From Pleurocapsa sp. CCALA 161 (GTDB lineage: Bacteria > Cyanobacteriota > Cyanobacteriia > Cyanobacteriales > Xenococcaceae): a stretch of DNA of 64,000 nucleotides. Below are positions 41,434 through 47,440 of this stretch, piece after piece; position 1 is the stretch's first letter, and each line of letters opens with the position of its first letter. A model generated the notes under the pieces. It ran no database searches, was not told the origin of the DNA, and worked only from the letters and a program-made list of their open reading frames with translations. The stretch covers positions 62,001 to 126,000 of the forward strand of contig NZ_PVWF01000002.1 of assembly GCF_003003995.1 (NCBI RefSeq), written 5' to 3'. The position numbers were made by a program, and so were the translations under genes.

Positions 41434-43191
41434 CTAATTACTTTGAAGCTTAAACTGGTCAAACATAATTGCTGGAGTATCGGATTGGCGAAGATCATAA
41501 CGATAGCTGCTCACTTTTCCCGTAGCGGTATCAAAAATACTAAAGACAGTAATCTCATTACTGGCAATATAGGGTAGCGGTTGTCCCAGGCGATCGCTCA
41601 AAGGTGCAAGACTCGGCACAATAGGCTGTAAACCATTAGGGTTGCCTATGGGAGCAAAATTTTGGGGGCTGTAGGGCGGAATTTCTCGTTTATTATCTCC
41701 TAAATGAGCGCCGTAACTATTACCCACGTTTGAAGATTCGAGAAAGTGCATTCCTGAAGCGCTTTGAAACCGATTCCAAAGATGGGAATGTCCATAATAA
41801 ACTAGCCCGACTCCCGCTGATTCTAATAACGGAATTAGATCGCGGATAATATAGTCATCTTGGAGGGGGTAATCATAATAGCGAGATGTTAGCTTGCCAT
41901 CTTCAGAGTAAGATTCCTGAGGCTGAGGATCGCTATAGGGGGGAACAATATTACCTCCTAAAGTATGAGGTGGATGATGAAACATAACTATTTTGTATTT
42001 AGCCTGCTGATAAGCCTGACTGGATAATTCTTGCTTCAACCATTCATACTGAGGGCTTCCTTTGGCGATCGCTTCAAAGATATGCTGTCCATAGCCCCAA
42101 TCTTGCGGGCGATCAAGACTATCTTCGCTTTCTTTATATCTACCCTGGGCATCTGCTTCTAGGCTAGGACTACGCCAAACATTAGTTACATAAAGAGAAA
42201 TTAATCTAATCTCGCCAAAAGTAGTGGCATAGTATTTCTTTCCCCCTGAGTCACTTTGAGGCAGAGTAAAAATTTCTTCATAGGTATCAGTATTAAACGA
42301 GTTGTTCTTAATCCATTCGGCTGCGGTTAAACTATTTGATCGCTTCATATTTGACCCCTCAAGTTGTGCTTTTGCTACCTGACGAGGCTGAGGTTGAGCA
42401 AATTCTTGCTTTAAACTGCGATTGGCTGATACTTTGCCCATCACTTCATGATTGCCAATTGCTGTAAACAAAGGGGCGTGCTGAATAATCTCGCCACCAT
42501 GATAGGTAGTAGTAATACCGTTATGTTCTAGCTGATAGTTTGCTTTCCCCTGAAGACTAGGAAAGAATGCCCCCCCTCGGCGATCGTCAAACCACTCGGA
42601 AGCACGATCTGGAATGTTGACTAAATCCCCAGCAAAAAAGACGGCATCCATACGTCCAATTTTGGCAACTTGCTCTAGGTTAGCGGCAACCATGGGCATT
42701 ACCTGATGGTCTGAGGTGAGCAAAATTTTGAGTGGGGTTTGTGGTGCAGGCATACCAGCCAGGGTAAAGACATCACTATTGTATACTTGTTCTTCTTGAT
42801 TACTGACTACTTGATATGGCACCCGCGCACCAGGAGATAGATTTGTAACTACAGCTTCGTGTCGCCAGATATCACGCTGAGATTTGGCTGGAGGGTTAGA
42901 AATCTGCGAGTCTCGATCTTCACGTACTCTGCTTAGTTTTGTCGTTGTGGCGATCGCGATTTGCTCTAATTGACTACCGTATTTAACTAGATGGCGATCG
43001 CCCTGAAATTCTGTAAACCAAACTACATTTACCGTTGTTTTTGTCGGTAATTGTAACAAAGGATCGCTCAAAAAAGATGTATTCTTATGGATTACTTGCT
43101 GTTGTTCTTGGGCAAAACTCATGGATAAACAATTAATAACGATCAGGGCAAAGATTGTTATAGACAGCGATAGTAGTTTAACGATTTTCAT
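41434..43191 (-). CDS. Secreted purple-acid-phosphatase-type metallophosphoesterase
   Basis: About 585 aa from ATG 43191; the open frame reaches 43299 by a GTG, but Met37 starts a clear signal peptide (MKIVKLLSLSITIFALIVIN then CLSMSFAQ). An N-terminal fibronectin-like domain is followed by the metallophosphoesterase core: LTSDHQVMP, FAGDLVNIPD, AIGNHEVMG, MFHHPPHTLGG and YGHSHLWNRF carry the metal ligands (the first is SDH, not the usual GD). Function is phosphate ester hydrolysis outside the cytoplasm. No Pho box was found by eye. Confidence 0.85.
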   Translation of the reverse strand: MKIVKLLSLSITIFALIVINCLSMSFAQEQQQVIHKNTSFLSDPLLQLPTKTTVNVVWFTEFQGDRHLVKYGSQLEQIAIATTTKLSRVREDRDSQISNPPAKSQRDIWRHEAVVTNLSPGARVPYQVVSNQEEQVYNSDVFTLAGMPAPQTPLKILLTSDHQVMPMVAANLEQVAKIGRMDAVFFAGDLVNIPDRASEWFDDRRGGAFFPSLQGKANYQLEHNGITTTYHGGEIIQHAPLFTAIGNHEVMGKVSANRSLKQEFAQPQPRQVAKAQLEGSNMKRSNSLTAAEWIKNNSFNTDTYEEIFTLPQSDSGGKKYYATTFGEIRLISLYVTNVWRSPSLEADAQGRYKESEDSLDRPQDWGYGQHIFEAIAKGSPQYEWLKQELSSQAYQQAKYKIVMFHHPPHTLGGNIVPPYSDPQPQESYSEDGKLTSRYYDYPLQDDYIIRDLIPLLESAGVGLVYYGHSHLWNRFQSASGMHFLESSNVGNSYGAHLGDNKREIPPYSPQNFAPIGNPNGLQPIVPSLAPLSDRLGQPLPYIASNEITVFSIFDTATGKVSSYRYDLRQSDTPAIMFDQFKLQSN

Positions 43192-43630
43192 TAAACAAAT
43201 TAAAGGCTTAAACCTATTTACGACATTATATTCTTGTAGCTTAAATGAGTCTATTGATAGATGACTATTTACCGAATTAGAATAATACGTAAAAACCACT
43301 ATTGCTTACTTTCTTAAACTAAAAATAAGATCAGAACTTAAGAATCAAAGCATTTCTAAGCTGTTTGAATTGTAATTGCTCTTACCCCTTTATTAAGTTA
43401 AGGTAATGATATCAAGCAGCTAAAATCTGATTAACCAACTAAAAATAATTTTCGATAATTACTGCTAAAAGCTATATGCTATAAAGATTTTAGCCAAGAA
43501 CACAAATCTCTCTGCTGAAGCAAAGTAATCCACAAGAACCTTACCTAAACCCTTGATAAATAGACTTGTTAGCACTTTTTAAGCTAGCTGAACATGTTTT
43601 TTAAGCATATGATAAAGCCAAGATATAATT
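43192..43630. other. Gene-free spacer upstream of the ncRNA unit
   Basis: AT-rich DNA between the phosphoesterase start and the promoter of the putative ncRNA. No open frame above about 40 codons with a plausible start, and no repeat was found. Confidence 0.5.
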
Positions 43631-43660
43631 TAGATACTTTCAACTAAAAGTGTTTATAAT
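43631..43660 (+). promoter_or_regulatory. Promoter of a putative ncRNA
   Basis: A perfect TATAAT at 43655-43660 lies 18 bases after TAGATA (43631-43636), a partial match to TTGACA. Transcription would start near 43667 on the plus strand, where no protein gene follows until hfq at 44828. Confidence 0.5.
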
Positions 43661-43666
43661 AGCAGG

Positions 43667-43853
43667 TAAGAAACGAAGTAATTCTACTAGGTTATTCAAG
43701 CAGGAATATAGCCAAGCTAGTTAAGGCAATTACTGGCAGATAAGTATTTTTAGCTGTTTCAGAGTCCCTGATAGGTTATTGAATTTTGTGTGTTTTGTGG
43801 TATTTTTTCGATCCCACGCTCTTATGGTTGAGTCGTGGGATTTTTTTATCTTA
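43667..43853 (+). ncRNA. Putative non-coding RNA of about 185 nt (6S-like in size; identity open)
   Basis: The segment runs from the predicted start of the TATAAT promoter to the strong terminator at 43811-43847 and is flanked on both sides by minus-strand genes, so the terminator serves no known protein gene. It has no open frame. Internal hairpins include GCC-AAGCTAGTTAA-GGC. The size matches cyanobacterial 6S RNA (about 185 nt), and AATTC near the 5' end can pair with GAATT near position 43781, but closing base pairing is incomplete in a hand fold. tmRNA is excluded by the missing tag reading frame and CCA end. Confidence 0.5.
43811..43847 (+). terminator. Strong plus-strand terminator
   Basis: ATCCCACG (43811-43818) pairs with CGTGGGAT (43834-43841), extended by CTC/GAG across a one-base bulge, followed by seven Ts (43841-43847). 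The opposite strand has CGAAAAAA after the stem, so it works only for plus-strand transcripts. Confidence 0.85.
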
Positions 43854-43945
43854 ATTGAGGATAAATTCCCTTAATTAGGTAATCTCTCAATGGTTATGAG
43901 ACGATGGCTTGAACAATTGAAAATCCTCAAATTGACTAACAAAAA

Positions 43946-44791
43946 TTACAGTGAGTATTGTCCTCGAAATACTTCACTGGCTGGACCCGTCATGTAAACG
44001 CGATTATCCGTAGCTGACCAATTTATTTGCAGACATCCACCAGGAAGCTCTACAGTGCAAAGGCGATCGCATTGATTATTTAACACTCCTGCTACCACAG
44101 AAGCACAAGCACCAGTACCACAGGCAAGGGTAATTCCCGCTCCTCTCTCCCAAACCCGCATCTTGATGTAATCTGGTTTAACCACCTCAATAAACTCGGT
44201 ATTTGTCCGTTGAGGAAAAACAGGATGATGTTCAAACAAAGGGCCAATTTGCTCTAAAGCGATCGCAACACTATCTTCAACAAAAGTAATACAGTGAGGA
44301 TTGCCCATACTAACGGTAGTAACCAACCAAGTGCGATCGGCAACTTCTAGTGGCTGGGCGATAACTTTCCCTTCGATCCCCGCTAGAGTTGTGGGTATTT
44401 TGGGCGCGGATAATTCTGGTTCGCCCATATCCACCGTCACTTCTGCGTTATTTTCCAGCTTCGGTACAATTAAACCTGCCAAGGTATCAATCTGGTAAGA
44501 TTTATTAACTTCGGTATTTGCTTCAAGATCGGCGATAAACTTAGCGAGACAGCGGATGCCGTTGCCACACATTTCTGGTTCTGAACCATCAGAATTATAA
44601 ATTCTCATGCTGTAGTCTGTGCTGGCTTTCCCTGGGAGGGCAAAAATAACTCCGTCACCACCAATGCCAAAATGGCGATCGCAGATGGCGATCGCTTGTT
44701 CGGGAGTAATGATCGGTTCGGCAGCATGACGATTATCAATCAAAATAAAATCATTGCCTAATCCTTGGTATTTGCTAAACTCGATTACCAT
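43946..44791 (-). CDS. dapF: Diaminopimelate epimerase
   Basis: 281 aa. Converts LL- to meso-diaminopimelate for lysine and peptidoglycan. [17 protein letters not shown] at the N-terminus; both catalytic cysteines are present, in [13 protein letters not shown] and in [17 protein letters not shown]. It is divergent from hfq, with start codons only 36 bases apart, so the two share one promoter region, a neighbourhood I recall for cyanobacterial hfq (memory, not checked). Confidence 0.97.
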
Positions 44792-44827: not shown

Positions 44828-45040
44828 ATGACTGAATTTAATACCGAACTACCTGGGGTCAGACAAGTTCAAAACTATATTAAAAACAAGCAAGAAGTAG
44901 AACTAAAGCTAGTCACTGACGATTTAGTTGTCGGCAAAATTCTCTGGCAAGACGCTGATTCTCTCTGTATGGTGGATCACTACAGCCAGGAAACTCTAGT
45001 TTGGCGACAAGCTTTGGTCTATCTTAAGCCAAAAGCATGA
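44828..45040 (+). CDS. hfq: Cyanobacterial-type Hfq
   Basis: 70 aa from ATG 44828; the frame is open upstream to 44765 but would overlap dapF. The sequence fits the divergent cyanobacterial Hfq: N-terminal [20 protein letters not shown], Sm1-like [20 protein letters not shown] and Sm2-like [14 protein letters not shown]. In Synechocystis this small Sm-fold protein is needed for type IV pilus motility and binds RNA poorly (known). The dapF neighbour supports the call. Confidence 0.88.
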
Positions 45041-45659: not shown

Positions 45660-46787
45660 TCAATTTGAGGATAAGTTATTTGTTGAAATAATATGTAAAT
45701 CGACATTGTGAAGAACTTTAAGTAACTCTTGTACTGGAGAGCTTCGTAATAATAATTGCCAGCGCGATCGCTGTGTTTGTCCTAATACTACTTGGGTAAT
45801 AAAATACTTATGAGCAGTTTCGGCGATCGCTTGAGTAATATTATTACTATTTACTCGAATGAATTCACCGCCAAATTGTTCGCATAGCTTTTCGCAGGTT
45901 TCCAAATAAAAACTTTCTTCTCTAGTTAAAAAGCGTTCTGGATTGTTAACATATAAAACATATAGACGCGATCGCATTTGACTAGCAAGTCTTGATCCTC
46001 TTCTTAATAAATGAGAGGAATTAGGATGAGTCGAAATACAAACTAAAACCCGTTCATGAATACTACAGTATTTGTCTTTAGGAGTCGTAGATTCGGCTAT
46101 TTCTTCGAGATTATCGGCGATTTCTCGCAGTGCTAATTCTCGCAGCGCAACTAAATTATGTCGCTGGAAAAAATTCTGTAAAGATTGCTCGATTTTGTCG
46201 GGACTATAAATTTTTCCTTCTATCAAGCGTTCTTGTAGAGTTTCTGGAGTAACATCAACTACCACAACTTCGTCAGCTTCATCTAATAAACGATCTGGAA
46301 TCCTCTCTCTAACTACTACCCCAGTAATTTTAGCTACCAAATCATTTAAACTCTCTAGGTGTTGAATATTAACCGTAGAAAAAACATCAATGCCTGCCGC
46401 TAAAACTACTTCTACATCTTGATAGCGTTTTTCTCGCTGCGAACCTGGCACATTAGTATGGGCTAATTCATCGATTAATACTAACTTTGGTTGACGAGCA
46501 AGAATTGCCTCTGTATCCATTTCCGTTAAAGTATTATTGCCTCGTATAATTTGCTGACGGGGAATTAATTCCAAACCTTTTGCTACTTCGGCGGTTTCTT
46601 CTCTACCGTGAGTTTCCAGTAACCCAATAACTACGTCAATTCCTTCTGCCAACAAACATTTAGCTTCCAGTAGCATACGGTAAGTTTTGCCAACACCTGG
46701 GGACATCCCAATATAGATTCGATGTTTACCGCGACGTTGAGAGTATTCGTAAGACAAAGAAGCGTCTATTTCATTACCTTCAATCAT
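45660..46787 (-). CDS. kdpD: Truncated KdpD (N-terminal sensor part only)
   Basis: 375 aa against about 890 for Escherichia coli KdpD. It contains the KdpD N-terminal domain with Walker A GMSPGVGKT (about residues 27-35) and Walker B LVLIDELAHTNVPGS, followed by a USP-like domain (about 245-370; VLVCISTHPNSSHLL to HNVDLHIIS). The membrane segments, histidine kinase core and ATPase domain are absent. Short KdpD proteins are known from Anabaena (kdpABGCD), so this is probably the native cyanobacterial form. It lies 2.3 kb from kdpC, with accessory genes between. Confidence 0.93.
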   Translation of the reverse strand: MIEGNEIDASLSYEYSQRRGKHRIYIGMSPGVGKTYRMLLEAKCLLAEGIDVVIGLLETHGREETAEVAKGLELIPRQQIIRGNNTLTEMDTEAILARQPKLVLIDELAHTNVPGSQREKRYQDVEVVLAAGIDVFSTVNIQHLESLNDLVAKITGVVVRERIPDRLLDEADEVVVVDVTPETLQERLIEGKIYSPDKIEQSLQNFFQRHNLVALRELALREIADNLEEIAESTTPKDKYCSIHERVLVCISTHPNSSHLLRRGSRLASQMRSRLYVLYVNNPERFLTREESFYLETCEKLCEQFGGEFIRVNSNNITQAIAETAHKYFITQVVLGQTQRSRWQLLLRSSPVQELLKVLHNVDLHIISTNNLSSN

Positions 46788-46985: not shown

Positions 46986-47237
46986 TTAGCCAATCAGCTT
47001 GTCATATTCTGCATGAGTACCAATCCAAACCCATAAAATACCGTTTTTGACTTCGACTCCTAATGCTCTGTATCCTCTCCCCGCACGAATTGACCAGTAT
47101 TGTCCAACTTTTTTGAAATGTAGCGACGGATGTGATGGATCTGTCTTGAACAATTCATAATTTTGGTCGGCTACTCTCTGAACTGCTTCTGGCAAAGCAT
47201 CATAGCATTTCCAAAATCGCTGGGTTGTATAGTGCAT
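46986..47237 (-). CDS. RelE-like type II toxin
   Basis: 83 aa. MHYTTQRFWKCYDALPEAVQ leads into a RelE/ParE-type fold: FKTDPSHPSLHFKKVGQYWS, IRAGRGYRALGVE and ILWVWIGTHAEYDKLIG at the C-terminus, the last matching the RelE-family end (W.GTH.EYD). It probably cleaves ribosome-bound mRNA (family inference). It overlaps the upstream antitoxin gene by one base. Confidence 0.85.
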   Translation of the reverse strand: MHYTTQRFWKCYDALPEAVQRVADQNYELFKTDPSHPSLHFKKVGQYWSIRAGRGYRALGVEVKNGILWVWIGTHAEYDKLIG

Positions 47238-47440
47238 TAAAGTGTTCGGCAGTTGCCTGCTTCAAATTCTGCCAGAGCTTCATGAGCCAGAAAGTCCAAT
47301 TTTCCTACCGCTATATCCTGCTCAATCTGCTCATCCCAGCGTTGCTCATCTAAATCCAATACCCAATCAACAAGCTGACTTAATTCTTGAGGAGAGAGTT
47401 TCAGAATTTCTGCTTCAATCTGTTTGACTGTAGACATCAC
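47237..47440 (-). CDS. Cognate antitoxin of the RelE-like toxin
   Basis: 67 aa: STVKQIEAEILKLSPQELSQ, then LVDWVLDLDEQRWDEQIEQD, an acidic helical protein ending ALAEFEAGNCRTL. Cyanobacterial antitoxins of this shape usually accompany RelE-like toxins. The stop overlaps the toxin start by one base. Start ATG 47440 or the next Met. Confidence 0.8.
   Translation of the reverse strand: MMSTVKQIEAEILKLSPQELSQLVDWVLDLDEQRWDEQIEQDIAVGKLDFLAHEALAEFEAGNCRTL

Follow-up and report, generated by a model that had tools for sequence, protein, structure and literature searches.

A conserved small RNA gene of Pleurocapsa-group cyanobacteria and its candidate pairing with the leader of the HU mRNA

HU, a histone-like protein of bacteria, is the main nucleoid protein, and small RNAs (sRNAs) that cover a ribosome-binding site (RBS) block 30S loading. 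In Salmonella, RaiZ, an RNA cut from the 3' end of the raiA mRNA and dependent on ProQ, represses hupA by stopping ribosome loading (Smirnov et al. 2017, PMC5391140). Among cyanobacterial sRNAs, Yfr1 is 54–57 nt long and has the core CACUCCUCACACC (PMC4734099), and the heterocyst-specific NsiR1 of Nostoc measures ~60 nt and is present in 12 copies, in tandem and with DIF1 promoters, upstream of hetF (PMC9045159). The cyanobacterial Hfq homologue has altered RNA-binding properties, according to a reference cited in PMC6202907.

The locus described here lies in a window of 64,000 nucleotides, i.e. the whole stretch of Pleurocapsa DNA that was analyzed, and its RNA is about 187 nt long. Like Yfr1, Yfr2, and other cyanobacterial sRNAs (PMC6202907, PMC4734099), it has a stand-alone promoter, an unpaired conserved core, and an intrinsic terminator, but its core is different, it matches no Rfam family, and its range is narrow. 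With NsiR1 it shares a cyanobacterial origin and a fixed neighbor gene in divergent or antisense position; by contrast, the window sRNA is much longer, single-copy in its genus, located upstream of a phosphatase gene, and found in coccoid cyanobacteria. The likeness to RaiZ lies in the proposed target, an HU mRNA, and in pairing at or near the RBS. However, the window sRNA has its own promoter and is intergenic, between the phosphatase gene and dapF; the two RNAs have no known sequence relation and are convergent at most. Because cyanobacterial Hfq has altered RNA binding, we propose no chaperone for the sRNA, and no ProQ-type partner of it is known.

Throughout, G000 is the window's own genome, g1 its genus (the Pleurocapsa/Waterburya/Hyellaceae group), and g6 a sister genus with the genomes G022 and G017, while G016 is one genome from a sister genus of g1. 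BLAST finds the stretch in 11 genomes of g1, G000 among them. The covariance model R1, derived from these sequences, recovers a single copy in each of 12 of the 13 g1 genomes (E ≤ 6.7e-11 in each), as well as one in G016. The sole g1 member without the sRNA is G009 (940 contigs), where its absence may be an assembly gap because the phosphatase match is missing there too. The unit is conserved as one block that runs from the upstream box through promoter and RNA to the terminator (Table 1). Mean identity among relatives is 0.5–0.9 across 43597–43856 and ~0.8–0.9 in the conserved blocks; it drops right past the terminator and is mostly 0.1–0.5 just outside the unit. Oriented alignments reveal five kept elements, i.e. 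the TTTTTAATAGTTTGATRAAG box, the spaced promoter, the GTAATTCTACTAGG block, the TTTGTGTGTTTTGTGGTAT(CCTTCTT) stretch, and the terminator. Promoter spacing, terminator, and an RNA length of 174–191 nt are maintained in 12 genomes, and the 3' stretch UUUGUGUGUUUUGUGGUAU(CCUUCUU) is the best conserved part of the sRNA.

Taken alone, the promoter match is at chance level, with 1 match of such quality found vs 1.1 expected in this stretch and 9 vs 7.0 expected in 2.4 kb. A chance pairing of promoter-like and terminator-like sequences that yields no transcript would account for this, but we give that explanation next to no credence, given that the entire unit, spacing included, is conserved in 13 genomes with a sharp end at the terminator, and given the model E-values obtained throughout the genus. 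It is this conservation in relatives that raises the promoter above chance. The TTTTTAATAGTTTGATRAAG box, a possible regulator site or UP element, is found in g1 genomes and G016 and is essentially unique in 2.1 Mb scanned on both strands.

Outside these genomes, R1 has no further match in 291 genomes of the order, the full model, run on 388 genomes sampled from the class, has none beyond the genus, and plasmid and phage collections contain no match to the sRNA. A wider cyanobacterial sRNA family was rejected, as outside the family a model of the 3' half (R2) matched nothing but unrelated terminators, and matches to the motif pattern in Bacteroidetes and Clostridia were taken as chance. Public records with the motif are those of Pleurocapsales cyanobacterium LEGE 10410, Pleurocapsa sp. 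MO_192.B19, a Myxosarcina MAG, Hyellaceae cyanobacterium CSU_1_1, and Waterburya agarophytonicola KI4. The sRNA gene is real, previously uncatalogued, and confined to one group of coccoid cyanobacteria among the genomes sampled.

Table 1. Features of the sRNA locus and of related loci (window positions unless a locus is named)
Feature	Position	Strand	Remarks
Phosphatase gene, purple-acid-phosphatase-like	41434..43188	-	Pfam Metallophos and Pur_ac_phosph_N; synteny
Upstream box, AT-rich, conserved, consensus TTTTTAATAGTTTGATRAAG	43597..43618	+	Identity 0.79 among relatives
-35 element TAGATA	43631..43636	+	TAGAT core retained in nearly all relatives
-10 element TATAAT	43655..43660	+	Invariant in 12 g1 genomes and G016
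sRNA gene	43667..43847	+	One copy per genome by covariance model R1
5' conserved block GTAATTCTACTAGG, left arm of intramolecular helix	43678..43691	+	93.5% of cells paired
Right arm of intramolecular helix	43767..43779	+	Pairs with 5' block
Antisense core TTTGTGTGTTTTGTGGTAT, conserved	43785..43803	+	Near-invariant in alignments
Intrinsic terminator	43811..43847	+	Stem 43811-43821 / 43830-43841, T7 at 43841-43847
dapF	43946..44791	-	Convergent neighbor of sRNA in window
g6 tandem arrays	L087 3350-4150 (G022); L091 3350-3790 (G017)	L091 reverse strand	Promoter-like sequence and terminator each

The terminator hairpin, 11 pairs with a one-base bulge, stands ~150 bases past the promoter and reaches −17.1 kcal/mol vs −5.7 for shuffles (z = −4.7). 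Changes on both sides occur in 4 of its 11 pairs in the alignment of relatives, i.e. it carries compensatory changes. The partner of the 5' block is an internal segment (43767–43779), and the 3' end forms the terminator as a separate hairpin. In the intramolecular helix 93.5% of cells are paired, and shifting the partner by a single column gives ~45% over the whole structure; helix and terminator together have 92.4% of cells paired and 14 double-change cells vs 5.4 in shuffles.

A helix between the 5' block and a segment inside the RNA, together with the near-constant length, could also belong to a structured or protein-binding RNA, i.e. a 6S-like sponge for polymerase or some other protein, with the core as the protein site. 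We regard this as improbable: without its terminator the RNA (43661–43800) shows no gain in stability over shuffles (z = 0.91, on the less stable side), the best conserved block lies outside the conserved helix, and there is no 6S match at the locus while a true 6S RNA sits elsewhere in the genome. The comparison with 6S RNA that the first-pass annotation drew from the size is not supported. A 6S RNA is a rod, closed at its 5' and 3' ends, with a central open bubble; the sRNA has the helix from its 5' block to 43767–43779 and, at its 3' end, the separate terminator hairpin. The sRNA is similar in length to 6S RNA (RF00013) but has no match to its covariance model up to E = 10 on 43300–43950, and the genome's real 6S RNA is on another contig (G000:C120; 72.6 bits, above cut-off). 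The Yfr families that it also named fare no better, since no Rfam family matches, the Yfr1 core is absent from the sequence, and the sRNA is far longer than Yfr1. Rfam 15 families at the gathering threshold have no match in the whole window, and near the locus searches at E up to 10 return chance-level matches only.

Frames of 12–24 codons within the RNA of some species could mean that the unit opens a longer regulatory leader or encodes a small protein. These frames start late, enter the terminator, and are not conserved, and the next downstream genes are on the opposite strand, which makes this reading very improbable; with no reading frame conserved across relatives, a small peptide gene was rejected. 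The first-pass annotation had otherwise described the locus well. Its orphan plus-strand unit (43631–43853) is borne out by conservation as a unit; TATAAT is present with an 18-base spacer from TAGATA at 43631–43660; the strong plus-strand terminator does end in seven Ts; and minus-strand genes, phosphatase and dapF, do flank the sRNA gene on both sides. Promoter, hairpin, and terminator, whose lack of conservation in relatives would by its account have counted against it, are all retained, and its noncoding RNA is supported by a single-copy, conserved unit with no conserved frame and compensatory changes in the terminator.

The phosphatase gene is the divergent neighbor of the sRNA in 13 of 13 sRNA-bearing genomes, and dapF is unlinked to it in G001, G006, G008, and G011, so the sRNA moves with the upstream region of the phosphatase gene and independently of dapF. 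For the same reason dapF was rejected as a functional partner. The phosphatase gene itself is in two separate pieces in G004 (L095/L098) and G008 (L096/L099); the G008 pieces are on one contig with ~2.2 kb between them, perhaps an insertion.

We find that the 15 nt at 43785–43799 are perfectly complementary to CACAAAACACACAAA, a sequence in the hup leaders of G000, G002, and G003, the product of hup being HU (Pfam Bac_DNA_binding). By a simple home-made nearest-neighbor duplex score that leaves accessibility out, the hup leader pairs with the cognate sRNA in all 10 g1 genomes for which a hup locus is available, at −15.7 to −22.1 kcal/mol, while the hup leaders of 14 genomes from other genera average −10.7, i.e. 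background level (mean ~−10). Single-strand folds leave the sRNA core 35–64% unpaired on average, and the sites in the hup leaders are rather open (57–72% unpaired at the RBS). The site is at the Shine-Dalgarno sequence as AAGAAGGAGACCA in G006, G007, G008, and G010 and as GAAGGATATCACAATG in G011 and G012, and several relatives have their Shine-Dalgarno sequence (AAGAAGGAGACCA or GAAGGAUAUCACAAUG) inside the duplex. In the window species and the two relatives closest to it, the site is a CA-rich stretch 31–57 nt upstream of the start codon.

Among sampled genes (~7–15% of each genome), hup ranks 1st of 631 in G006 and 2nd of 288 in G008, two genomes that had no part in finding the target, and 2nd of 356 in G000 and 2nd of 288 in G010; these four ranks are not independent tests because g1 members share ancestry. 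Alternative start codons give ranks of 2, 3, 2, and 6, with G010 sixth. Complements of the core are, overall, no more frequent in eight g1 genomes than matches to the reversed pattern, and the RBS segment of G000 alone is not above background, with 67 of 355 genes as good. Matches to the RBS-type pattern GAAGRANAYYAYN{0,6}ATG are genome-wide about as numerous as expected by chance. Within 30 inspected loci of this type, hup is the sole gene that recurs ahead of a clearly real start, and the hup genes of G006 and G010 matched the pattern by coordinates as well. The neighbors phosphatase, dapF, and hfq were rejected as targets, with unremarkable energies of −10.5, −6.9, and −14.1, respectively.

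Exchanging partners between species weakens the pairing. For example, the G000 sRNA scores −11.7 with the G008 leader and the G008 sRNA −13.0 with the G000 leader, vs −20.4 and −17.4 for the cognate pairs, and a G000-type RNA scores −12.7 with the G010 leader. These losses suggest co-adaptation of sRNA and hup leader, and one change at the base of the G000 clade could also explain them.

The sister genera retain the core, yet their hup leaders have no match, so hup is not the only or the ancestral target; either it was acquired later or there are several targets, hup being one of them. A genuine sRNA whose main targets are other mRNAs, perhaps several or genus-specific ones, with a secondary or fortuitous hup match, is accordingly an alternative to weigh. 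The core GUGGUAUYCUUC is common to g1 and g6, and the g6 hup leader fails to match it; moreover, other leaders do equally well within single genomes, e.g. those of a 484-aa ORF in G000 and a 314-aa ORF in G008. Nevertheless, no other gene is top-recurrent in more than 1 genome (with ~7–15% of genes sampled), and hup alone recurred among the RBS-type matches inspected, and we hold this alternative to be rather unlikely. The hup leaders of Stanieria, where no sRNA was found, reach −16 with g1 sRNAs, and CA-rich leaders therefore match partly by composition.

With moderate confidence, we favor a stand-alone gene for a trans-acting base-pairing RNA of ~187 nt whose core would pair with the hup leader. 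Sequence and conservation alone reveal the features of a trans-encoded base-pairing sRNA, i.e. an own promoter, an intrinsic terminator, no ORF, and a conserved region that is complementary to the hup leader across species and ranks above most genes. Judging from the −10 element and the T-run, RNA polymerase would start near 43667 and stop at the T-run after 43841. The 5' part would then fold onto the internal segment and leave the GU-rich core upstream of the terminator free as the antisense region, which would pair with the leader of the hup mRNA. Because the duplex covers the Shine-Dalgarno sequence, ribosome loading on hup should be blocked in several relatives. In G000 and its two nearest relatives, repression might proceed via a standby site or through mRNA decay, and the mode of action in G000 is less certain because its site is 31–57 nt upstream and its RBS segment is at background. 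By analogy with RaiZ the sRNA should lower HU synthesis, and it probably tunes the amount of HU made.

In g6, diverged tandem sRNA-like units lie upstream of the same phosphatase gene, three in G022 and two in G017, and most bear GGTGGTATTCTTCC-like cores. Like the copies of NsiR1, they stand in tandem, and each has a promoter-like sequence of its own. Of the five units, four score 60–71 bits, partly by construction as these four are in the model's own alignment; two of them match the independent model R1, at 37.8 bits (E = 1.4e-4) and 29.0 bits (E = 0.005). No target was found for the g6 tandem units.

A possible history, which we put forward tentatively, is that the sRNA was born beside the phosphatase gene, was tandem-duplicated in a sister genus, and was recruited in one genus for the control of HU, with hup sites shifting between the RBS and the upstream CA-rich stretch as the core changed; this would be an independent invention, in cyanobacteria, of nucleoid control of the RaiZ–hupA type. 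If true, the barely studied, baeocyte-forming Pleurocapsales would have a new sRNA family, and the clade would preserve in legible form how an sRNA arises, is duplicated in tandem, gains a target, and switches sites.

In Stanieria-like genomes (L088/L089), the region upstream of this phosphatase gene contains a strong terminator hairpin on the plus strand, CCCACCCCTTCCGCTTTGGGATGAGGAGTGGGC. It was rejected as a relative of the sRNA, the core motif being missing, and may be another orphan unit. Within the window, a cyanobacterial Hfq-type gene (44828–45040, plus strand; Pfam Hfq_1) is divergent from dapF. Further along, the minus strand encodes a short KdpD of 375 aa (45660–46787), with sensor and Usp domains only and without the histidine kinase domain, and a ParE-like toxin (46986–47440; Pfam ParE_like, 2.3e-6), which is overlapped by a small upstream ORF without Pfam match that is probably its antitoxin.
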